Virus record (IMG/VR): IMGVR_UViG_3300035698_000945
Coordinates: 1-24,549 of that record
Strand: one strand, 5' to 3'
From: a virus
Length of the DNA stretch: 24,549 nucleotides
This document shows, piece by piece, positions 1,488 through 19,326 of this stretch. The position numbers and the translations under genes are program-made. The notes below the pieces were generated by a model. It had not been told where the DNA came from. It worked only from the letters and a program-made list of their open reading frames with translations, and ran no database searches. The first letter of the stretch is position 1. Every line of letters begins with the position of its first letter.

Positions 1488-2087
1488 TCATTTGGCCTCG
1501 TTCGCCGCCTTGGTCAGTTTCAGGGTGAGGCGTTTAACTCTGTAGCATTCTTTACACACGTTATCCCGAGTATACCTGGGAGCTTCATGCCCATGTTCAC
1601 AGGGACCGGGGTAGTAGAGAGTATCGCCATCTTTGAAAGCTTCCTCGCGTGTTTTAACCGGAGGTAACGCGTATTCTATAACGCCGAAGTCATCCAGAGT
1701 GGGGATCAATTTCACTGGCATCTTATAATCATGACATCTCTCAGCGTCCAGCCCGAGATCCTTCATAACTTTCTTCCAAGGCAGCCCGTGATGTGAACCG
1801 CCCGGGGTTAACACGCAGTCTATAACGTGCGCGACTTCATGACCGACGGTTTGTTCGAAATCTTTGTGGTTAAGAACCGCGAGGTCAAGATTATATCTCA
1901 ACTCACCATCCCGGAAACCGGAGTCGGTTGCCACATATCTGAATGAGCCTGCGTTCTTACCGCGGAGGTCAAATGTCACGGGCACCCGTGTAAACTCGCG
2001 CTCATACACTTTCTCACCCTTCACATAATACTTCTCCACTTGTGCAATAATACTTGTCATCATCTCATTCTTGGTTATGGTCTTCAT
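1488..2087 (-). CDS. SprT-like zinc metalloprotease domain protein
   Basis: A 199-residue protein with the SprT/SPRTN arrangement: HEVAH at residues 83-87 (zinc-binding HExxH), then GGSHHGLPW at 96-104 giving the third histidine in an HGxxW context. The C-terminus adds a probable zinc ribbon (C163, H165 and/or H167, C178, C181). SprT-type proteases degrade DNA-protein crosslinks in eukaryotes (Spartan); bacterial and phage forms are mostly uncharacterised. I chose the ATG at 2087 because AAAGAGAG lies just before it; an in-frame ATG at 2117 would add 10 basic residues but has no clear ribosome-binding site. First gene of the leftward operon, facing the AT-rich control region. The family call is firm; the substrate is unknown. 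Confidence 0.85.
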   Translation of the reverse strand: MKTITKNEMMTSIIAQVEKYYVKGEKVYEREFTRVPVTFDLRGKNAGSFRYVATDSGFRDGELRYNLDLAVLNHKDFEQTVGHEVAHVIDCVLTPGGSHHGLPWKKVMKDLGLDAERCHDYKMPVKLIPTLDDFGVIEYALPPVKTREEAFKDGDTLYYPGPCEHGHEAPRYTRDNVCKECYRVKRLTLKLTKAANEAK

Positions 2088-2309
2088 GTTATCTCTCTTT
2101 CGCGTATTTAAACGCACATGTAAAGATAATATATATTTATTATATATTATTTATATTCTTTTTATTTTTCCTCCTTTCAAGTTTTGATTATTTGTGAATT
2201 TGATATTTTGGATATGAAAAAACTGTGCCAAGTTTAACAATGAATGAAAATCATTTTATAAATTACCGGCAAGGTATTGAAATGATACACAATAATAATT
2301 TATCACTTT

Positions 2310-3347: not shown

Positions 3348-5618
3348 ATGCCAAACATCTTCTTGGGCTCTTCATTCAACGACCTTCCAACTGCAAAACT
3401 AGATAAACACGAGATAGACTCATTTGAGGACTTTTGCGAAAAATTTCTACAGACTTGTCGCAAGGGAAAAAAGAACGAACACTACATTACGATAGGAGAT
3501 AGCTATGACCTTACTAAAGGCGACCCAGATGCTCCAAAGCTTTCGTATAAAAGAGCGGATCACTACCATAGAAACAACCGTTCTCAAGTATCTGCCTGGT
3601 TACTCCCGTTTGACGGGGACTCCTCGAAAGATAATAAGGACGGCTGTATCGATCCTGAGCTTGTTCATACTTCTCTAAAGAAGTTAGGATATAATCATGT
3701 CGTCTACACAACTCACTCCCATAAACGAGGAACGAAGAACAGATGGCGTTTGTTCTTGCCCTGCAGGCTGTCTTCTGCTGGACAACTCAGCGCCACTGTT
3801 AAAAAACTCTACAGTGATCTCAATAATAATGGCTGCGGAAATCTTGCGCTGTCAAGTGAATCCAAGACGTGGTCAGTGCCTTGGTTTCTTCCGACAAGAG
3901 ACGATCCAACAGATAGCGAATTTAAATATTTCTTTTTTGGTAGTGGAAGAGACTTTATTGCAGTAGACGCGGAAGAGGGGGAAAGCTATGAAAGAAAAAC
4001 AAAAGGAGAAGATAGAACCGTTACGGGAATGCTCGAAACAATTGCTGCGGGAAAAGCAGACACTGGACTTCATGCTGCAACTAGAGATCTTGCTTACGGC
4101 CTTGTCAAGGACGGTCTCGCTCCCGCTGCCGCTAAAGCAATACTGCACTTTGTCACAAGCTTCTATAAGGGCGGCGATCGACAAAAAGAGAATTTATCTA
4201 AAATCGAGCCTCTCGTCGATTCCGCGGTAAAGAAGCTATTGTTAGAGGCGCCAGTTTCGACCGAGTGGACTGAAGATAGGCTAACGAAGGACAGTAGGGT
4301 TTACACTGACTATCCTGAGCAGGGTACAGTTATGGAGGAGATAGTAGACACATGTCTAAAATGGATGCCCTACCCAAACAGGCAAATTGCGGTGATTGCA
4401 GCGCATACGCTAATAAGCACTTTAGGTGGGAGAGTTTATTCGCTCCCGGGTGGGAGAGGAATCGTTCTTACTGCTTTGGTCACAGGCAGGAGTACTATAG
4501 GAAAATCTTTTATAAAGAAATTCGTCATCTGGTGTCTAAACAACTTCCAGTTAGCGAATGTGAGTCAAGATTTTGTGGGCTCGCATTTCTATACATCCTC
4601 GAAAAACCTGATCACGGAACTCCAAGAAGCTGGGAGCTTATTGTCGGTAAGGACGGAGTCTGGTCAGTCCGATAAATCAACAGCGGGGGATATGACACGT
4701 GTACTCATGTATGAGTTGGAGCTCGCGACAGAGAGCGGAGAGTCTGGGTACGTTTCTAGCGGGGGACAGAACGATAAAATCCCTCCACTCTACTCGCCTG
4801 CCGTTACGACGATTAGAGAAAGCGTGGCTCAGGTACAAAACGAGGCAGATCTTATTAACGCTACAGCCGTCTCTGGCGTGGCGGGACGAAGGTCCCATGT
4901 ACTTATCGATCCTATTAAAGGACAGTATAACGAGTTTCAACTCGAAAAACTTCCCGAGCTTATTAGACAACTCATTATTGCAATTTATAAAAAGGCGGCG
5001 ATCGAGCAGCGTAAGAAGGTTACTGAAGCTCTGCCCGAAAACCTATGGACGAGGATAGAGTATAAGAACCCACAGTACATAAGTATGAAGAGAAAGGTCT
5101 GGATTGCTAGGGAAAATAAAGCAGCTCTAAAGAACGATCATTTCTCCTCTACCTTTTATGGTAGGATAGGAGAGAGGTTACCCAGCTGGGCTGCAAGACT
5201 AGCTATATGCGACAATCCTATCTGTCCCGTGATAACTAATCAGCACATAGATATTGCAGAAGAAAGCTTGAAGGCGGAATTGACAGGGAACATGGCTCAA
5301 CAGGAGAGCGGTGAGCTGGACTCAGATATCAGTCAGGTTGCTAACAGTTTGATAGAGATGTTTAAAGGGGACATGTCTAAGAACAAGTCTCTTAACCAGG
5401 GTAATAATAAGAAGATGTTAAGGGACGGAGCTTGTGAATTACACAGGATAATGGGAAGAGCTAGAACTAAAGCTGCCTATAAAAAAGCGGCGTCCCACGT
5501 ACATAACATAGATCAAATACTTCTGTCTACTCTTAAGACTCGGGGTCTTATTGAGCTAAAGCCAGACGAGAGCATTTCATTATACAAGTATAGAGGGAGG
5601 GTATTAAAACGTGTCTAA
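3348..5618 (+). CDS. Primase-helicase-like replication protein, 756 aa
   Basis: Likely the phage replication initiator/primase. The N-terminal third looks like an archaeo-eukaryotic-type primase domain: FDGD at 88-91 (metal-binding DxD), VVYTTHSH at 118-125 and NRWRLFLPC at 131-139 supply the usual acidic, histidine and basic blocks. The second half carries a P-loop, GRSTIGKS at 380-387, after a stretch typical of primase-associated or DUF3987-type ATPase domains. I could not find a clean Walker B, so helicase activity is less certain. ATG at 3348 follows GAGG at about 8 bases, at the end of the structured leader. It overlaps the next gene by eight bases. It lies next to the repeat field that may be its origin. 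Confidence 0.7.
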   Translation: MPNIFLGSSFNDLPTAKLDKHEIDSFEDFCEKFLQTCRKGKKNEHYITIGDSYDLTKGDPDAPKLSYKRADHYHRNNRSQVSAWLLPFDGDSSKDNKDGCIDPELVHTSLKKLGYNHVVYTTHSHKRGTKNRWRLFLPCRLSSAGQLSATVKKLYSDLNNNGCGNLALSSESKTWSVPWFLPTRDDPTDSEFKYFFFGSGRDFIAVDAEEGESYERKTKGEDRTVTGMLETIAAGKADTGLHAATRDLAYGLVKDGLAPAAAKAILHFVTSFYKGGDRQKENLSKIEPLVDSAVKKLLLEAPVSTEWTEDRLTKDSRVYTDYPEQGTVMEEIVDTCLKWMPYPNRQIAVIAAHTLISTLGGRVYSLPGGRGIVLTALVTGRSTIGKSFIKKFVIWCLNNFQLANVSQDFVGSHFYTSSKNLITELQEAGSLLSVRTESGQSDKSTAGDMTRVLMYELELATESGESGYVSSGGQNDKIPPLYSPAVTTIRESVAQVQNEADLINATAVSGVAGRRSHVLIDPIKGQYNEFQLEKLPELIRQLIIAIYKKAAIEQRKKVTEALPENLWTRIEYKNPQYISMKRKVWIARENKAALKNDHFSSTFYGRIGERLPSWAARLAICDNPICPVITNQHIDIAEESLKAELTGNMAQQESGELDSDISQVANSLIEMFKGDMSKNKSLNQGNNKKMLRDGACELHRIMGRARTKAAYKKAASHVHNIDQILLSTLKTRGLIELKPDESISLYKYRGRVLKRV

Positions 5619-6051
5619 CTTTAACGACCCAATAACAGCAGAAAGCACAGTGACTATTGAGGGAATTGCTCAGAAGCTAATAGCTGCAGCTGATAGGATT
5701 ATCGACTATAGGCTGGGAATTGCTTTTGGTTATGAACCTCCTGAAGGCTTTGAGAATGGCAGCAAGGATGAGCAAACTGCTATCTTGAAGATGATTGATC
5801 CTTATTTGAAAGCGTATCAGGAAGTCAAGGGCATGAACGCTCGTACGTCGGGTAGCGTCATATCTCTTCTCAAGTCTGGAAAGATCTCTTCTGTTGAAGC
5901 TATCTCTCTTTTAAACGTCATAAAGACTAAGTTGGAAGTTGAAGAATCAGAGATGGAAGCTAAGCTGAAGAAAAAACTGTTGAAAGATGTAGACGACGAA
6001 GTTGAAGAACCTGAAAAGGAGGAAGACGATGTCAAAAAGGCAGATAAATAA
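5611..6051 (+). CDS. Hypothetical protein with acidic/basic helical tail, 146 aa
   Basis: Starts at GTG 5611, eight bases inside the end of the primase gene, with GGGAGGG about 10 bases upstream. Residues 1-110 appear helical (IAQKLIAAADRIIDYRLGI). The last 35 are highly charged (EAKLKKKLLKDVDDEVEEPE and onward), probably a coiled coil or disordered tail. No enzyme motif. Its position between the primase and nuclease genes suggests a DNA-metabolism accessory role, but that is context only. Confidence 0.6.
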   Translation: MSNFNDPITAESTVTIEGIAQKLIAAADRIIDYRLGIAFGYEPPEGFENGSKDEQTAILKMIDPYLKAYQEVKGMNARTSGSVISLLKSGKISSVEAISLLNVIKTKLEVEESEMEAKLKKKLLKDVDDEVEEPEKEEDDVKKADK

Positions 6052-6199
6052 AGCTAAGCAGAAAAAGAAAGATTATTTCTGTACCTGCCCTAACTGCGGC
6101 AGCAAAACTAAAGGACACTTCGTGCCTCCCTGCTTTGGTGATAAAGGCTTTTTTATCTGTGAGGAGAAGGGGGTAGAAGACGATGGGAAGGATAAATAG
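6029..6199 (+). CDS. Small zinc-ribbon protein, 56 aa
   Basis: The ATG at 6029 follows AAAGGAGGAAG, a strong ribosome-binding site, and overlaps the end of the preceding gene. The start is very basic (MSKRQINKAKQKKKD). A zinc ribbon follows: CTCPNCGS at about 19-26, then PPC and FFIC further on, giving two cysteine pairs. The C-terminus is acidic. Small zinc ribbons beside replication genes usually bind nucleic acid or a polymerase partner; nothing more can be said. An in-frame ATG at 6002 is less likely because it lacks that ribosome-binding site. Confidence 0.65.
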   Translation: MSKRQINKAKQKKKDYFCTCPNCGSKTKGHFVPPCFGDKGFFICEEKGVEDDGKDK

Positions 6200-6572
6200 T
6201 CGTAGCAAAGGGGCTGGCGGAGAACGGGAATTCGCACGCTGGCTTCAAGACAATTTAAGTCTAAACTTCCTACCGCAGCGTAATTTGGAGCAAGTGCGTT
6301 CTGGAGGGGCGGACATCATTGATGTTCGTCCCTTCAACTTCGAAGTAAAGAGATGCCAGACTCTTAGCAAGCGTAATTGGTGGATTCAGGTTAAGAATTC
6401 ATGTAAGGGGGATGATGTCCCTGTCGTAGCATACCGCAAAAACAACCAACCATGGCGTTTCCTCATTTCTGCTAAACAGATAGGACTAGACAAAGGCTTC
6501 GTTCAATTAGAAGAGTTTGAAGCAAAACAATGGTTAACTATCTATTTAAATAGTAATCACGTAAGTCCTTGA
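6183..6572 (+). CDS. PDDEXK nuclease, Holliday-junction-resolvase-like, 129 aa
   Basis: Shows the PDDEXK core in the expected order and spacing for Hjc-like archaeal/phage resolvases: SRSKGAGGEREFARWL at 6-21 (first glutamate), GGAD at 41-44 (metal-binding aspartate), FEVKRCQ at 53-59 (ExK motif), then a QVKN and PVVAYR strand. Enzymes of this fold cut branched DNA; phages use them to resolve recombination or replication junctions before packaging. It is the last gene before the packaging promoter and overlaps the zinc-ribbon gene by 17 bases, consistent with a replication operon. A non-specific nuclease of the same fold is the alternative. Confidence 0.75.
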   Translation: MGRINSRSKGAGGEREFARWLQDNLSLNFLPQRNLEQVRSGGADIIDVRPFNFEVKRCQTLSKRNWWIQVKNSCKGDDVPVVAYRKNNQPWRFLISAKQIGLDKGFVQLEEFEAKQWLTIYLNSNHVSP

Positions 6573-12596: not shown

Positions 12597-13541
12597 ATGT
12601 CAGGACAACTCTGGGCAACCAACTCACTCGGTGGTTACATGAGTGCAAAGAAACTTAGCAAGAAATTGCGGTATTCTTTGTTCAACGTCGTGAAGTTTCG
12701 TCAGTTCTGCGACGTGAAAGACGCGAGCCAGCAGGGTAAAAAGAAAGGTGACTTGTTCACTTGGGACGTTTACTCTACTGTCGCCACCGAGGGCACGACT
12801 GTGGCTGAGACCGCAACCATGCCGGAGACCAATTTTACTATCATTCAGGGGACCTTGACCATCACGGAAGCTGGCAACAGCGTGCCGTACACTGGCAAGT
12901 TGGACAATCTGTCTGAACATCCCTTGACCGAAATCATCGATAAAGTCCTGAAACAGGACGCTAAACAGGCCTTAGACGGCCTTGCATACGCTCAGTTTAA
13001 TGCGACTCCCCTGCGCGTTGCGCCGGCGAGTGGTACGAGCACATCGGCTATCACTATTACCACAGACGGTACCTGCACCCTGACAAACACGCTTGCTTTG
13101 AGCAAGACTCACGTCGGCCTTATCGAAGACGCGATGAAAGAACGGAACATTCCGGGCTACATCGCTGACGATTACTACGGTCTGGCGTGGCCCTCAACTC
13201 TTCGTGCCATGAAAACTGAGCTCGAAGGCGTGTATCAGTACACAGTTGAAGGTCTGCAGATGATTAAAAATGGCGAAATCGGACGGTACAACAACATGCG
13301 TTTCGTCGAGCAGACCAACATTGCAAAAGCATCCTGGGCCCAGGCAGACTCTGACTGGGTGTTCTTCATGGGTGGAGACACTGTTGCTGAGGGTATCGCA
13401 GTACCTGAAGAGATGCGCGGAAAAATTCCGACTGATTATGGCCGGTCTAAGGGCATCGCGTGGTACTACCTGGGAGGCTTCGGCCTCGTTCACACCCTCG
13501 CGGCCAACGCGCGGATCATGAAATGGGACAGCGCCGCCTAA
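12597..13541 (+). CDS. Major capsid protein, 314 aa
   Basis: Main shell subunit, by position after the scaffold and by its length. Features of the HK97-fold/P22-like capsid group: an N-terminal arm (LSKKLRYSLFNVVKFRQFCD), an E-loop-like strand region (TEGTTVAETATMPETNFTII) and a helical spine (HPLTEIIDKVLKQDAKQALD). The gene is richer in G and C, especially at third codon positions, than the glycosyltransferase cassette, consistent with heavy expression. GGAAGGAAATAAG precedes the ATG. The call is firm from context; the fold is inferred. Confidence 0.85.
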   Translation: MSGQLWATNSLGGYMSAKKLSKKLRYSLFNVVKFRQFCDVKDASQQGKKKGDLFTWDVYSTVATEGTTVAETATMPETNFTIIQGTLTITEAGNSVPYTGKLDNLSEHPLTEIIDKVLKQDAKQALDGLAYAQFNATPLRVAPASGTSTSAITITTDGTCTLTNTLALSKTHVGLIEDAMKERNIPGYIADDYYGLAWPSTLRAMKTELEGVYQYTVEGLQMIKNGEIGRYNNMRFVEQTNIAKASWAQADSDWVFFMGGDTVAEGIAVPEEMRGKIPTDYGRSKGIAWYYLGGFGLVHTLAANARIMKWDSAA

Positions 13542-13565: not shown

Positions 13566-14018
13566 ATGTCACGATTCTACGATCATCCTTCGTTTAATGG
13601 CGGGGTTCAGAGTGTTGTCATGGGAAAGGCTGCAGACGCTGCAATTGGTTCAGCAGCAGCTGCCGCAGCAGTTCTCGATTCTGTCGACCTCATGAAGAAC
13701 GTCACCATTAAGGACTTCAACCTCTCATGCCTCGTAGGCGCCACTTGCACTGGCACCGGCGGGGTCCCGGGAGAAACCTATGTTCTTACCGTCGGTAAGA
13801 GCGTAGCGGGAACAGGCGCATTCGTAGCCATTGGCACAGCTGCTGTAGGCACAGCGGGCATCGCTAATATGGGCGTTCAGGATGGGTCTGTTACTGAGAC
13901 AAACCTGGATGAAGGGGACTCTTTGCAGTTCCGCCAGGAAGTCGGAACGGCACTGGGCGACAACAGTCTCGTTGCTCGCGCTAACGTCAGCTACGTCGAA
14001 CGTTACGTCAATCCGTAA
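13566..14018 (+). CDS. Possible head decoration protein, 150 aa
   Basis: Immediately downstream of the capsid gene, sharing its G/C-richer codon use, and ended by a strong hairpin. The sequence is alanine/glycine-rich at the N-terminus (AADAAIGSAAAAAAVLDS) and then strand-rich (ETYVLTVGKSVAGTGAFVAI and LVARANVSYVERY), as in a beta-sandwich. A decoration or cement protein is the simplest reading; a head-fibre base or minor capsid protein is possible. There is a GGAAG before the ATG at 13566. No family confirmed. Confidence 0.6.
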   Translation: MSRFYDHPSFNGGVQSVVMGKAADAAIGSAAAAAAVLDSVDLMKNVTIKDFNLSCLVGATCTGTGGVPGETYVLTVGKSVAGTGAFVAIGTAAVGTAGIANMGVQDGSVTETNLDEGDSLQFRQEVGTALGDNSLVARANVSYVERYVNP

Positions 14019-14027
14019 ACAATCAAC

Positions 14028-14049
14028 AGTGGGGGCTTCGGCCCCCACT
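14028..14049 (+). terminator. UUCG-capped hairpin after capsid genes
   Basis: Nine-base arms AGTGGGGGC and GCCCCCACT around a TTCG loop, an exceptionally stable tetraloop class. It lies 10 bases after the decoration-gene stop and 9 bases before the first glycosyltransferase. A poly-U tract is lacking (AAGGAAAG follows), so it may be a partial terminator or an mRNA 3' stabiliser that makes capsid message more abundant than downstream genes. Confidence 0.65.
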
Positions 14050-14058
14050 AAGGAAAGT

Positions 14059-15147
14059 ATGAAGAGAGTATTTATACATAGAGAAGCTGCATACGGAGAT
14101 CATATTCATATGAGCCCCGTTATACGCGCTTTCTTTGAAGAAGACTGCGAAGTTTCTGTACTGTATAATTTTAAAGGTGCTCAGATACACACTCATAATC
14201 CCATGATTACGAATCATGTATTCTTTGAAAGAGGCGCTAAAGACGTTACTCCTAAAAAAATTAACGAGATGAATGCTCTTTTAAAGAAAGCATACGAAGA
14301 GTACGATGTATTTGTAGAACTTCAGAACACTATAGAAGAAGAGTTAATACCTGGAGAACATAGTCCTGAGTACTTTTGGCCTCTTAGATTAAGGCGTGAA
14401 AAGAATTCAGGAATATGTTTTTACGATCAGTCAATGATTAAAGCAGGTCTTACAGACCAGAAGTACATGGGTAAAACTGGAGATATTTTCTTTACTAAAG
14501 AAGAGCATAACTTTGCTTTAGATTACTTAGAACAATTTAAAGATAAGTACATAATCCTCTGGGCAATGAGAGGGTCTATGTTTCAAAAAGCAATGTACCC
14601 TATAACTGAACAGATCTGTAGAGAATTCGTTAAAAAATATCCTAACACAGTTATTATAACTACTGGAGACGTGTTTTGTCAGCAATGGGAATGGGACCAA
14701 GATGAAGTAATTAACTTATCTGGACGAATTCCGTTTAGACAAGCTCTTAATATAGCTAAATATGTAGACATGGTAGTTACGCCTGAGACGGGCTTGGGCA
14801 TTGGCGCGGGTTCAATGTCAGTTCCAAAGATAATGCTGCTAACTGCAGCTAGTCTTACTAACATAGTGGGAAATGACGAGAACGACTACTCTATCCAGTC
14901 CCCAGCTTATTGCTCTCCCTGCTTTAGAGCTATTTATAATACTCGCAACTGCATGTTAAGCGATTATAAAATATCTGTCAGCAACGTAGACTCAGTAGGA
15001 TTTCCTGAGAGAGGCGTTGAAGAACTTACTCGACTTCCCATATGCGTTAATTTTCCTCCTGAATTAGTTTTAGATCAAATGGACACTGTGCGTAACTGCG
15101 GATACGAACGTAACTGGGATAGACCTACTGAAGAGGTTAGCACATGA
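14059..15147 (+). CDS. GT9-like glycosyltransferase (heptosyltransferase-like), 362 aa
   Basis: Resembles GT-B fold heptosyltransferases, which transfer a sugar from a nucleotide donor. The N-terminus has the family's R-x(5)GD opening (residues 8-14, REAAYGD, then HIHMSPVIR); the C-terminal domain has YVDMVVTPETGLGIGAGSM at 235-253, the nucleotide-sugar site motif D-x-VVTPETG. Near the end is a CSPC-x9-C cluster (285-298), repeated in the second GT9-like protein of this cassette. The ATG at 14059 follows AAGGAAAG; the frame also runs upstream, but that part overlaps the decoration gene and the hairpin. It overlaps the methyltransferase gene by ATGA. Acceptor unknown: host surface glycan, virion protein or DNA are all open. 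Confidence 0.75.
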   Translation: MKRVFIHREAAYGDHIHMSPVIRAFFEEDCEVSVLYNFKGAQIHTHNPMITNHVFFERGAKDVTPKKINEMNALLKKAYEEYDVFVELQNTIEEELIPGEHSPEYFWPLRLRREKNSGICFYDQSMIKAGLTDQKYMGKTGDIFFTKEEHNFALDYLEQFKDKYIILWAMRGSMFQKAMYPITEQICREFVKKYPNTVIITTGDVFCQQWEWDQDEVINLSGRIPFRQALNIAKYVDMVVTPETGLGIGAGSMSVPKIMLLTAASLTNIVGNDENDYSIQSPAYCSPCFRAIYNTRNCMLSDYKISVSNVDSVGFPERGVEELTRLPICVNFPPELVLDQMDTVRNCGYERNWDRPTEEVST

Positions 15148-15803
15148 TTTGTTGTGTATGTCATAATAAAATGGTTCATTTGAAAAAAGATCTTTTTAAG
15201 TGCAAGTCGTGTAGTCTTATTTCAAGTAATTTAAAGCCTGACTTAACTTTATACGATAAGTCTTACTATGTAAAATATCAAAGGTATCAACGCTCCGTAG
15301 TAGGAGATCAAATAAGCAAGTTTAGAGTTAACTTTGTAAAACAACTTTGCGGATCTGATCTTTCTATTTTAGACTTTGGTTGCGGGTCTGGCGCATTTTT
15401 AAATGAATGTCGTAACTCTGGAATAGAAGCTAGAGGCTTTGACGTCAATCCTCATTCTCCTTTCTGTGATATAGTTAACGTATTTAATGGTCACAAAGTA
15501 GTTACATTTTGGGATTCATTAGAGCATTTGTCTGACCCCGCTGTAGTCGTAAAAGGTCTTAAGCCTAAATACTTGTTTGTATGCGCTCCATGTACAGACG
15601 ACTTCTTAGGAGACGATCTTACCAGATGGCATCACTACTACCCGGGAGAGCATCTCCATTACTTCAGCTTTTTTAGTTTATCAAGACTATTCAGGGAATG
15701 TGGTTACTACGTAAGTAAATTTTCTAGTGGAGAGTCAAAATATAGAACGTCTGGAGGAGACAAGAACATTATTACTCTTGGGGGTGTACGTGGGACACAT
15801 TAA
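15144..15803 (+). CDS. SAM-dependent methyltransferase with N-terminal zinc ribbon, 219 aa
   Basis: Class I methyltransferase. The N-terminus has two cysteine pairs, CxxC at 3-6 and CKSC at 20-23, a zinc ribbon. Motif I is ILDFGCGSGAFL at 75-86, the motif II acidic residue lies near 100 (GFDVNPH), and a FWDSLEHLSDP block at 122-132 fits the post-motif region. The ribbon-plus-methyltransferase layout with YDKSYYVKYQRY between them is common in sugar- or small-molecule-modifying enzymes from glycan loci. It overlaps both neighbours (ATGA upstream; its end overlaps the ParB-like frame). With two glycosyltransferases nearby, methylation of a sugar or glycan is plausible. Confidence 0.75.
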   Translation: MICCVCHNKMVHLKKDLFKCKSCSLISSNLKPDLTLYDKSYYVKYQRYQRSVVGDQISKFRVNFVKQLCGSDLSILDFGCGSGAFLNECRNSGIEARGFDVNPHSPFCDIVNVFNGHKVVTFWDSLEHLSDPAVVVKGLKPKYLFVCAPCTDDFLGDDLTRWHHYYPGEHLHYFSFFSLSRLFRECGYYVSKFSSGESKYRTSGGDKNIITLGGVRGTH

Positions 15804-16548
15804 AAGAGTACTCGCACTCGGCGAGGTCGATCCAAGAAGCTTAACTGCTGATCACATTTGGACTGATCTGTGTGAGAACATTCATCTGCATATTAGAAAT
15901 ACTCGTATAGAGTTTTCTGAACTAGAGTTTGCGCATTTCAGAGCAGCAATAAACAGTTGTGGAATGGCAGTAGAAAAGATTGCAGAAGAAAAAGACTATC
16001 GTGAAGGTGATCCTAATTTCTTAATTCAGCAGATATTTGATGTGCCTGTTAGGGCAGACAGTGAGTATTTTACAAATAGAGTCTCTATTGAACTTAATCG
16101 CGATAATACTGTACACTTTCATTATCGTGATATTCGTCTTCATTGGAGTCTTCCTGAGTTTAGGAAAATAGCGAGTATGTTTAAAGATTCTTTACGTAAG
16201 TTTCTTGAATTTAAAAAGTTTCCGTATGAAGGTCAGTTTAAAAGACTGAATGCTACTCTTGACATCGATGATGTCCAGCCGTACGACGAGGGTCACAGAC
16301 CCGGAGTTATTGATGAAGAACACAGAAAAGGAATTGAATACGTAAAACAACTTATTAAAGATGGAGAAACAATTAGACCAATTCTTGTAAATTCAGAGGG
16401 TCAGAGACTCGATGGGTTTAAAAGATATATGGCACTTAAAGAACTGGGGTATGAAAAAGTTGACTGCATCATCGATCCGTGGGGAAAGATGGGTGGACAG
16501 CACAACCAAAGCTTTATAGCGGATAAGGGAGAACATCATGCAGAGTAA
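15727..16548 (+). CDS. ParB-like domain protein with internal duplication
   Basis: The C-terminal part (about 205-253 counted from 15727) resembles a ParB/sulfiredoxin-type domain: ETIRPILVNSEGQRLDGFKR then MALKELGYEKVDCII, the I-x-V-x-(D/E)G-x-R-x-(D)G-x-(R)R pattern. Ahead of it two related units appear, NIHLHIRNTRIEFSELEF (51-68) and TVHFHYRDIRLHWSLPEF (128-145), so the N-terminal half looks duplicated. ParB-like domains may bind nucleotides, cut DNA or phosphorylate. Start uncertain: GTG at 15727 lacks a ribosome-binding site and overlaps the methyltransferase by 77 bases; GTG at 15784 or 15790 is equally possible. No ATG occurs before residue 80. It may act on the modification pathway of this cassette. 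Confidence 0.6.
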   Translation: MESQNIERLEETRTLLLLGVYVGHIKRVLALGEVDPRSLTADHIWTDLCENIHLHIRNTRIEFSELEFAHFRAAINSCGMAVEKIAEEKDYREGDPNFLIQQIFDVPVRADSEYFTNRVSIELNRDNTVHFHYRDIRLHWSLPEFRKIASMFKDSLRKFLEFKKFPYEGQFKRLNATLDIDDVQPYDEGHRPGVIDEEHRKGIEYVKQLIKDGETIRPILVNSEGQRLDGFKRYMALKELGYEKVDCIIDPWGKMGGQHNQSFIADKGEHHAE

Positions 16549-16900
16549 AATGCTCGACGAAACAAAGCCGTATGGAGAAACATTCGGAATCTCACAGTAC
16601 AGATATTCACAAGGTGATCTTAAATTTAACGCCTCGAAGATTTGCATCAACCCGCCTGCTCCCACAGCTGCTGAAAAAGCTGCTGCGAAGAGAGCTGAAG
16701 CTGAAGAAAAGCAATCCCTCAAAGAAGCAGCAGTTGCTGAGCGTGAGAAGTGTATTTCAAGAGTGTCTGCTGCAAAGCAGGTCTTCGAAGATCTCCCGCG
16801 GTCTGCATCAGCAGTTGAAAAATCCATAGCCGAAGAAGCTGTTGTAATTGCCGAAGACAACTTCCTGGCTGCCGACGCTGCGTATAAGGAGCTTAAATAA
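16538..16900 (+). CDS. Alanine-rich coiled-coil protein, 120 aa
   Basis: Starts inside the end of the ParB-like gene, with GGGAG before the ATG. The first 40 residues are mixed, with YGETFGISQYRYSQGDLKF. The rest is an alanine/glutamate/lysine-rich helix (PTAAEKAAAKRAEAEEKQSL and on), probably a long coiled coil. No enzyme motif. Its place within the glycosylation cassette may be incidental; it could be a small structural or scaffold-like protein. Function not recognised. Confidence 0.6.
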   Translation: MQSKMLDETKPYGETFGISQYRYSQGDLKFNASKICINPPAPTAAEKAAAKRAEAEEKQSLKEAAVAEREKCISRVSAAKQVFEDLPRSASAVEKSIAEEAVVIAEDNFLAADAAYKELK

Positions 16901-16901
16901 A

Positions 16902-18272
16902 ATGAATGAGTTCAAATTCGACATGGTCCCGTATACACGCGGTGTCGGAATTGAACTGTCGCCTGATGAAGATAAGCTGTTTCCTCATTTCATTAAGTGG
17001 AGTGAGGAAGCAGTCCCTTTGATCAGGCCGCAGTCTCTCGATTTCGTCTATTATAAGGTAGACAAAGACAGCGATATCGACATTAAGAATCTTTTAAATC
17101 TGATAAAACAGGGCGGACACTTTAACATTGTTCTTCCCCCATCGTATCCTATGTCTCTTATAGGCGCAGCTTTATCTGAGTATCGTATTCAAGAGAGAAC
17201 TCAGTACGATGAAGTTGTTTACTACTCATTTAAGCGCCCGGGCGGCGCAGACTACGGGAGAATTCCATCAGGAGAAAAGACATGTGCAGTTATGCGGTAC
17301 GGGGGCATTGGCGATATGATGATGTCTTCATGTGTCTTCCCTGAGTTAAAGAAGCAGGGATACCACGTTACTTTATTCACGCATGATAACAGCTATGAAA
17401 CTGTAAAGTTAGATCCTAACATAGACAGATTTATACTTCAAACGTCAGGACAAGTTCCTGCTTACGATTTTAGAAATTTCTGTTTTCATACGTCTATGAA
17501 GTACGATAAGTTTATTAACTTGTCAGAATCAATAGAAGGCACTCTTCTAGCTCTCCCTGATAGAGTTAGCTACTACTGGCCAAAAGCAATTCGTCATGAA
17601 CAAATGAATAAGTGCTACTACAGCATGACAGCCAAGATCTCTGAAGTACCCTTAAACTTATGTGGAAAGTTCTACGCGTCTCAAAAAGAAAAAGTGCTAG
17701 CTAAGAAAAGATACGATAAAATGTCGGGTCCAGTTATTTTGTGGGTTATGTCAGGATCCGCATTACATAAAATGTGGCCATGGCAAGATCAAGCAATTGC
17801 TAGAGTTTTACTCCAGCACCCTACTGCGACTATCGTTCTTATGGGAGACGCAGCCTCGTCTCTTTTAGAACAAGGATGGCAAAATGAGCCTAGAGTAAAA
17901 TGCAAGGGCGGAAAGTGGTCAATACGAGATACAATGGCATTTTGCAGCGTTGTAGATCTAATTGTAACTCCTGAAACGGGCGTAGCACTTTCAGTACAGT
18001 TTCAAGATGTTCCTAAAATACTGCTTCATTCTCATTCGTCAGTTGATAACTACGCATACGCCTGGAAAAACTGCATATCGTTAACTCCTGTTGATTGTGA
18101 ATGCTACCCTTGCCATCAAATGCACTACAGCTTTGAGCATTGCTCAATAGTGGAAATTAGTAATGAAGACGGTCCTGAAACTGCAGAGTTTGCTGAATGC
18201 CAGGTTAACATTTCTGCGGACGCTGTATCAGCAGCTATTAACAAGGTACTTAATGAAAAAACTACTACGTGA
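16902..18272 (+). CDS. Degenerate methyltransferase-like domain fused to GT9-like glycosyltransferase
   Basis: Two-part protein of 456 aa. Residues 1-110 look like a decayed class I methyltransferase: YTRGVGIELSPDEDKLFPHF at 11-30 matches the common YTRGxGIDLGxGxxKxFPHF opening but has lost the glycine-rich GCG loop, and LDFVYY plus LIKQGGHFNIVLPP at 46-80 fit the later strands. Residues 127-456 are GT9-like: AVMRYGGIGDMMMSS at 129-143, VVDLIVTPETGVALS at 350-364. A CYPC-x9-C cluster (401-414) matches the one in the first enzyme. ATG at 16902 follows AAGGAG at about 10 bases. It overlaps the next gene by 20 bases. Probable glycosyltransferase; the first part may be structural or binding. Confidence 0.7.
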   Translation: MNEFKFDMVPYTRGVGIELSPDEDKLFPHFIKWSEEAVPLIRPQSLDFVYYKVDKDSDIDIKNLLNLIKQGGHFNIVLPPSYPMSLIGAALSEYRIQERTQYDEVVYYSFKRPGGADYGRIPSGEKTCAVMRYGGIGDMMMSSCVFPELKKQGYHVTLFTHDNSYETVKLDPNIDRFILQTSGQVPAYDFRNFCFHTSMKYDKFINLSESIEGTLLALPDRVSYYWPKAIRHEQMNKCYYSMTAKISEVPLNLCGKFYASQKEKVLAKKRYDKMSGPVILWVMSGSALHKMWPWQDQAIARVLLQHPTATIVLMGDAASSLLEQGWQNEPRVKCKGGKWSIRDTMAFCSVVDLIVTPETGVALSVQFQDVPKILLHSHSSVDNYAYAWKNCISLTPVDCECYPCHQMHYSFEHCSIVEISNEDGPETAEFAECQVNISADAVSAAINKVLNEKTTT

Positions 18273-18591: not shown

Positions 18592-19326
18592 ATGTCTACT
18601 TCGGGATCAGTCGACTTTAGCGTATCGGGCGGGGACATAGTAAAAGCTTCGTATAGAATCGTGTACAACGTAGGTTCTGACTACACGCTAGAACCCGCGG
18701 AACTCGTTGATGGTCTTCAGGCTCTCAACATGCTCGTTAAGAACTTGATGGGACCTCCGAACTTTTTAATGAAAGGTGTTAAAACCTGGCAGAAAGAAAG
18801 AATCAGTATTGATCTTAAAGAACAGATAGAACTGTCGCTAAAGCCCTCAGGCGGCGACGAAGACATGACTGTTCCTGTTAAGATATTAGACATCAACTAC
18901 AAGATCACAGAGTCAAGTACTGAAACTCCTCTTGTTGAGATGCTGTATCCTGAGTATAAAGCTATCGCTGATAAGACAGCTACAGGGATTCCCACTAAGT
19001 ATAACTACGAACGACGCCTTGATGAGGGTCTTCTTAGATTTAATGTTGTACCGACAGCTGAAATCGTAGCTGCTGTAGACACAGTTGAACTTACGTACTT
19101 AAAGAAACTTGAGGACTTTGACGCTCAGACAGACGACCCGTACTTCCCTCAAGAATGGTACAGACCTCTGAAGTGGATACTGGCTGTTGAGATGCATCCT
19201 GAAGCGGGTAAGAAGATGCCGGCCTCTGTCGCAGCTCTCGCTAATCAAGCAGTAGAGACTGCTAATAAGTTTGACAATGAAAACGTTGTCATGTGCTTTG
19301 AGCCCAATAACCCGGAGATGCAGTAA
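18592..19326 (+). CDS. Tail adaptor protein, T7 gp11 / P22 gp4-like, 244 aa
   Basis: Placed where podoviruses encode the ring that joins portal to tail tube. Typical features: LVDGLQALNMLVKNLMGP near residues 42-59 (alpha-helical core) and DDPYFPQEWYRPLKWILAVE at 181-200, close to the conserved P-x-EW-x-x-(A/P)L block of these adaptors. AAGGAT precedes the ATG, and its stop overlaps the next gene (TAATG), which looks like P22 gp10. The pair therefore forms the tail-hub module. Remote homology judged from motifs; a plain hypothetical tail protein is the fallback. Confidence 0.7.
   Translation: MSTSGSVDFSVSGGDIVKASYRIVYNVGSDYTLEPAELVDGLQALNMLVKNLMGPPNFLMKGVKTWQKERISIDLKEQIELSLKPSGGDEDMTVPVKILDINYKITESSTETPLVEMLYPEYKAIADKTATGIPTKYNYERRLDEGLLRFNVVPTAEIVAAVDTVELTYLKKLEDFDAQTDDPYFPQEWYRPLKWILAVEMHPEAGKKMPASVAALANQAVETANKFDNENVVMCFEPNNPEMQ

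Follow-up and report, generated by a model that had tools for sequence, protein, structure and literature searches.

The window, a linear fragment of 24,549 bases that is an entire IMG/VR record, has a set of putative glycan-enzyme genes between the gene for the major capsid protein (MCP) and that for the tail adaptor, a place referred to below as the slot. We regard this slot, with moderate confidence, as a virion-glycosylation locus that would add a methylated heptose-like sugar to a virion protein, and the position and the conservation of the genes favor the virion over DNA or the host surface as the target. More tentatively, we suggest that a very large group of uncultured podoviruses and prophages has a dedicated, exchangeable glycan locus at a fixed place in the head module, a phage counterpart of the bacterial O-antigen locus. 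It would be anchored by an undescribed methyltransferase-heptosyltransferase fusion and would serve to diversify the sugars that coat the virion.

The head module of the window

The window has the head module of a P22-like podovirus, with genes for a large terminase, a portal protein, a protein at the scaffold position, the MCP, a 150-aa protein, the block of genes at positions 14059 to 18272, the tail adaptor and the head-closure protein Hc3. The MCP (12597 to 13541, plus strand), which matches phrog_1357 with an E value of 7.6e-14, is the upstream border of the slot. It is about 50% identical to the MCPs of the cultured Vibrio phage 219E41 and of E. coli Pondi and HelliStehle; the cultured phages have a similar gene order and no annotated glycosyltransferase genes after the MCP. 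The downstream border is an SU10-like tail adaptor (18592 to 19326, plus strand), which matches phrog_12985 and, under the cut-off, the Pfam family SU10_adaptor (E = 6e-4), and whose place in the gene order is kept in relatives.

The gene for the 150-aa head-associated protein (13566 to 14018, plus strand), which has a YD-P motif at its N-terminus, adjoins the MCP gene in the window and directly follows it in relatives. The protein has weak profile similarity to the equivalent proteins of other members, and a small protein is encoded at a similar place in the cultured relatives that infect Vibrio and E. coli. We infer a decoration role for it, and it is a candidate acceptor for the sugar.

A preliminary description of the block had named two GT9-like enzymes (here GTA and GTB), a zinc-ribbon methyltransferase (MT) and a ParB-like protein (PARB) in one overlapping unit. 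All five of the ORFs that it flagged exist and are conserved in relatives, and the genes do overlap or abut. Identities between the window and the relative L001 are 72% for GTA, 53% for MT, 61% for PARB and 60% for GTB, and, for the structural proteins, 80% for the MCP, 67% for the portal and 62% for Hc3. The A/T-rich codon use reported for the whole block is seen in GTA, MT and PARB (GC 0.37-0.39, GC3 0.30-0.33). GTB (0.41/0.39) does not stand out in this respect, being close to Hc3 (0.43/0.39), and it is the genes for the capsid and decoration proteins that have an unusually high GC content.

The block also contains a small protein (16538 to 16900, plus strand) with the motif LDxTKxYG...RYxQDG. 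We assign it to the core of the morphogenesis module because similar proteins occur at the same place in relatives, including the cultured Vibrio phage 219E41 (L053, 13855-14298) and both of the empty-slot relatives described below, and it is probably outside the sugar pathway. This core gene within the block goes beyond the preliminary description, as do the decayed methyltransferase domain of GTB and a strong hairpin at 14027 to 14050 ahead of the block.

The two GT9-type glycosyltransferases

GTB has two parts. Its C-terminal GT9 domain (17253 to 18272, plus strand) is intact in its catalytic residues and its four-Cys finger, as judged from an alignment and a predicted structure. The residues G20 and D21, S169, K173, E241 and T242, and C284, C287, C297 and C316 are invariant in an alignment of 65 sequences. 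The structure prediction that had been proposed as a check gives a heptosyltransferase-like GT-B fold with a pLDDT of 95; among PDB entries, the model is closest to the GT9 protein 3tov (E = 1e-15) and WaaF (1psw, 1.3e-14), followed by WaaC and then TibC. All 20 of the records counted have a single GTB. PHROGs match only the methyltransferase part of the protein, and the glycosyltransferase part has no PHROG.

The N-terminal region of GTB (16902 to 17252, plus strand) is a decayed SAM methyltransferase in which, by alignment with homologues, the motif LDLGCG has become IELSPD. Most GTB proteins have an N-terminal SAM methyltransferase, for which a profile comparison matches a methyltransferase of solved structure (E = 6e-6). 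The motif is intact in 99 of 120 homologues and degenerate in the window, L001 and L163. The GTBs of these three group together with full support, inside a part of the tree made up of intact members, with one loss on the tree. A stand-alone MT is present in these same three, as well as in the partial L011; L009 and L012 have an intact GTB methyltransferase domain and no stand-alone MT, and L158 has both. This pattern is only suggestive of a link between the decay of the domain and the presence of the stand-alone enzyme.

GTA (14059 to 15147, plus strand) also has a C-terminal four-Cys finger and is homologous to GTB along its length (profile against profile, E = 2.5e-63). Residues D14, K177, E243/T244, C285, C288, C298 and C329 are invariant in 11 GTA homologues. 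An Asp in a GD motif, a donor-site Lys and Glu-Thr pair and four Cys are invariant across the 65 GTB and 11 GTA sequences; the Asp is presumably the catalytic one, judging by the motif and by analogy with WaaC. The Pfam matches to GT9 (PF01075) are weak (E = 0.005 for GTA and 0.0012 for GTB), with scores of 16.6 and 18.6 bits against a gathering cut-off of 22, and for this reason we call both proteins GT9-type. The identity is nevertheless secure, by structure for GTB and by the profile match to GTB for GTA. A sequence search of solved structures with GTA gave chance matches only, and searches for GTA and GTB relatives in cultured phages found none.

Relatives of each protein are fused to methyltransferases; in L009 a TylF-like region is fused to the C-terminus of GTA, and in L001 a TylF gene adjoins GTA. 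These fusions, together with the wealth of glycan enzymes in the slot, support the earlier suggestion that the block transfers a methylated sugar.

The methyltransferase and the ParB-fold protein

MT (15144 to 15803, plus strand) combines a zinc ribbon, in which the four Cys (C3, C6, C20 and C23) are invariant, with a SAM methyltransferase domain of the Methyltransf_23 family (Pfam E = 1.4e-16; phrog_6564, E = 1.8e-22). A search for defence systems gave weak methyltransferase matches only.

PARB (15790 to 16548, plus strand) most likely starts at the GTG codon at 15790, judging from its homologues. Its C-terminal part has a ParB/sulfiredoxin-like fold, as indicated by PHROG (E = 4e-6) and by a Foldseek match to pNOB8 ParB-N (E = 7e-4), and the GxxR motif reads GFKR in all eight full-length members. 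The N-terminal half is a family-less domain of two repeats (IHLHIRNTRIEFS and VHFHYRDIRLHWS), and the structural model is confident in the ParB part only. A source for the N-terminal domain was sought in bacterial genome contigs and nothing was found, and a search of cultured phages with PARB gave one marginal match. We reject the identification of PARB as a partition protein. The ParB fold and GxxR are present, but Pfam finds neither an HTH nor a C-terminal dimerisation domain, and little sequence follows the fold. There is also no ParA partner among the window proteins scanned.

A 2025 survey describes fusions of ParB folds with Methyltransf_23 in phages, as well as ParB folds that bind ATP, CTP or GTP (PMC12704722). 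PARB resembles orphan ParB-fold proteins of phages in its ParB/Srx-like fold and GxxR motif, and its methyltransferase neighbor fits a known association; it differs from them in its two-repeat N-terminal domain, in having no HTH and in its glycosyltransferase neighbors. PARB is probably a nucleotide-dependent partner or a kinase-like enzyme of the block, although no other element of our model is as weak. In a T4-like contig (L013), the N-terminal repeat domain is a gene of its own, and the gene next to it (the pair is at 5499-5993 and 5983-6396) includes a stretch resembling a ParB box, for which BLAST gave no significant similarity.

The slot in related phages

A single MCP alignment was used to fetch its 80 best-matching loci. 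Of these, 42 show the whole slot, and GTB is between the MCP and the adaptor in 40 of these and never beyond the adaptor; the corresponding 95% applies to this sample and not to the family. In the two exceptions, L246 and L255, the MCP and small proteins, including the small core protein, are followed directly by an adaptor-type gene, i.e., the slot is empty. These two and the cultured relatives show that particles can form without the slot genes, which are not universally needed for assembly. Most of the relatives fetched with the portal also have a GTB homologue between the MCP and the adaptor, and all 107 mapped slots contain GTB, in a set that is biased because it was fetched largely with GTB itself. 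A search with a GTB profile finds the gene in at least 581 stretches of IMG/VR and in 19 contigs of bacteria from several phyla. Several of these contigs are plainly prophages, and GTB-bearing prophages occur in Paraburkholderia sp. C35 (L138/L089) and P. rhynchosiae WSM 3937 (L139).

GTB distances track MCP distances (rho 0.45, Mantel p 0.001), with a tighter relation between MCP and portal (0.60). GTB thus travels mostly with the capsid, and it is an old, near-core gene. GTA, MT and PARB are specific to a small subclade, where they or variants of this layer lie between the 150-aa protein and the small core protein (the window, L001, L009, L011, L012, L157, L158, L159, L160 and L163). The single inserted cassette of the preliminary description is therefore not sustained: the gene orders of relatives, the GTB tree and the MCP-fetched loci all led us to reject one recent acquisition, and a core structural gene sits inside the block.

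The other contents of the slot vary widely. By Pfam, the 109 non-core slot ORFs include TylF (12), GT2 (7), group-1 glycosyltransferases (6) and Methyltransf_23 (6), as well as hexapeptide transferases (3), FkbM (3), sulfotransferases (2), Gfo/Idh (2) and PIG-L (1). An equal number of ORFs from outside the slot, each of at least 150 aa, includes two TylF, one FkbM and one epimerase, with no GT2 or group-1 glycosyltransferase among the 25 families listed. Thus, glycan enzymes are concentrated at the slot in a way that is not seen outside it. Even L018 and L020, which have no GTB within the stretch covered, have slots with genes for GT4, a methyltransferase, a deacetylase, an acetyltransferase, an oxidoreductase and a sulfotransferase. 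In L033, an FkbM methyltransferase and an epimerase-like gene (14325-15508) come just after GTB. Two ORFs of the control set are homologues of aspartyl/asparaginyl hydroxylases (PF05118), another possible type of protein-modifying enzyme.

A hairpin between the capsid and enzyme genes

An RNA hairpin with a 10-bp stem and a TTCG loop is predicted at 14027 to 14050 (plus strand), between the capsid genes and the enzymes. We examined this junction in the ten loci of the subclade (the window, L001, L009, L011, L012, L157-L160 and L163), and all nine of the other full-cassette loci have strong predicted hairpins of about 8-13 bp that are unrelated in sequence. Perfect stems of at least 8 bp follow 20% of the decoration genes and 14% of the MCP genes, as compared with 1.1% of random stretches, and some of them have T-rich tails. 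The hairpin is likely to be a leaky terminator or an RNA-processing stem, which would fit with the capsid proteins being made in excess over the enzymes. Phage T7 has a comparable arrangement after gene 10. There is no moron-like excess of promoters at the block.

Proposed function and alternatives

We propose that GTB, with GTA in the subclade of the window, would transfer an activated sugar onto a virion protein. The donor would most likely be ADP-heptose from the host pool of LPS precursors, which would account for the absence of sugar-precursor genes, and the likeliest acceptor would be the head surface or the 150-aa decoration protein. The sugar would be O-methylated by the stand-alone MT in the window and by the N-terminal domain of GTB or by TylF/FkbM enzymes in relatives, and PARB would probably be a nucleotide-binding partner or kinase-like enzyme. 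We infer both the order of these steps and a benefit to the phage in shielding, adsorption or stability. Several points count against the proposal: gene position is an indirect guide to the acceptor, the nearest solved relatives are LPS heptosyltransferases, the empty-slot and cultured relatives do without these genes, the methyltransferase domain of GTB is decayed in the window, and the GTB-MCP correlation is below that of MCP and portal.

The main alternative, which has perhaps one chance in a handful, is that the enzymes modify host LPS or another surface glycan during infection or lysogeny, as in serotype conversion or superinfection exclusion. The closest solved structures, WaaF, WaaC and a bacterial GT9, are LPS heptosyltransferases, so an LPS acceptor is possible; at least one carrier (the L089 record) is a temperate prophage with an integrase; and a four-Cys finger like that of the window proteins is found in WaaF from the hosts Paraburkholderia and Aromatoleum. 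Because an ordinary host WaaF has this finger, it does not establish a protein acceptor, and we rejected it as evidence for membership in the TibC-type protein heptosyltransferases. However, the genes are within the head morphogenesis module and not placed separately as a lysogenic gene, the promoter excess is missing, and the position is fixed across the family while the slot partners differ.

It is improbable, though less so than the two readings below, that a tail fibre or other tail protein is decorated instead of the head. The slot does border the tail adaptor too, other podoviruses have tail-fibre genes in this region, and Pseudomonas phage D3 encodes relatives of MT in its head-tail region. 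Nonetheless, the glycan genes come between the capsid and the adaptor and adjoin the head-associated protein, and the window shows no linkage of a fibre gene to them.

Hypermodification of DNA, with a glycosylated and methylated base and with PARB as a DNA-related partner, is very improbable. The known linkage of ParB-fold and Methyltransf_23 domains in phages (PMC12704722) would speak for it, as would the weak matches of MT to DNA methyltransferase families. But a thymidylate-synthase homologue is present in only three of 20 GTB-bearing records and none is seen in the window fragment, which agrees with the doubt that the preliminary description had raised; in addition, the fold is that of GT9 and not of the known base glucosyltransferases, and the genes are in the head module and not with replication genes. 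Least probable of all is a structural or assembly role for a GTB without enzyme activity, as its near-core place in the morphogenesis module and its decayed methyltransferase domain might suggest, since none of 65 homologues departs from the GT9 residues of the catalytic and donor sites and the empty-slot relatives keep the head order without it.

Relation to known systems

The virion-glycosylation locus that we favor has several partial parallels. The window proteins have the GT-B fold and the GD and donor-site motifs in common with the LPS heptosyltransferases WaaF, WaaC and the Veillonella GT9 3tov, and a four-Cys finger in common with host WaaF; they differ in being only 11-17% identical to them, in falling under the Pfam cut-off, in being fused to or next to methyltransferases and in their place in a phage head module. 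The TibC/Aah (BAHT) autotransporter heptosyltransferases modify proteins and have a GT9-like fold with a four-Cys iron finger near the C-terminus (PMC4358343). The window GT9s share this fold; their four invariant Cys recall the finger, which is not diagnostic because ordinary WaaF has one. They have no N-terminal beta-barrel: GTA is without such a domain and the N-terminus of GTB is a methyltransferase. TibC also ranks under WaaF and WaaC in the Foldseek matches of the GTB model.

Glycosylation of phage virions is itself known. Glycans on the major capsid proteins of mycobacteriophages Che8 and Rita are reported in PMC11256854, and PMC12619734 also deals with mycobacteriophage capsid glycans, both with citation of Freeman et al. 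2023. These phages and Maravista resemble the window in encoding glycosyltransferases. The glycosylation genes of Maravista are near the 3' end of the genome; the putative ones of the window belong to the head module, encode GT9-type enzymes and are accompanied by methyltransferases. The orf13 region of phage D3 likewise has an MT-related methyltransferase between head and tail genes, but in a siphovirus head module with no annotated GT9 genes. A literature search found no description of a glycan arrangement between capsid and adaptor, and as far as the literature and collections searched extend, there is no earlier account of a fixed slot in the head module, of the fusion of a methyltransferase to GT9 or of its breadth in uncultured phages.

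If the proposal is true, virion glycosylation would extend beyond a few mycobacteriophages to a widespread group of phages, in which it would be a near-core trait and in which sugar-modifying enzymes would be exchanged at one locus under an unchanged capsid. It would also account for a glycosyltransferase family whose glycosyltransferase part has no PHROG and which is not represented among the cultured phages of the collection searched, and prophage-carrying soil bacteria would offer a directly testable system.

A search of the window for RNA genes and tRNAs found none. On the strand opposite to the block (1488-2117, minus strand), the window encodes a SprT-like metalloprotease-type protein (Pfam E = 1.3e-6). 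Downstream of head closure, L001 encodes a SET-domain protein (14624-15463; Pfam E = 8e-7) with an N-terminus that looks cupin-like by eye.
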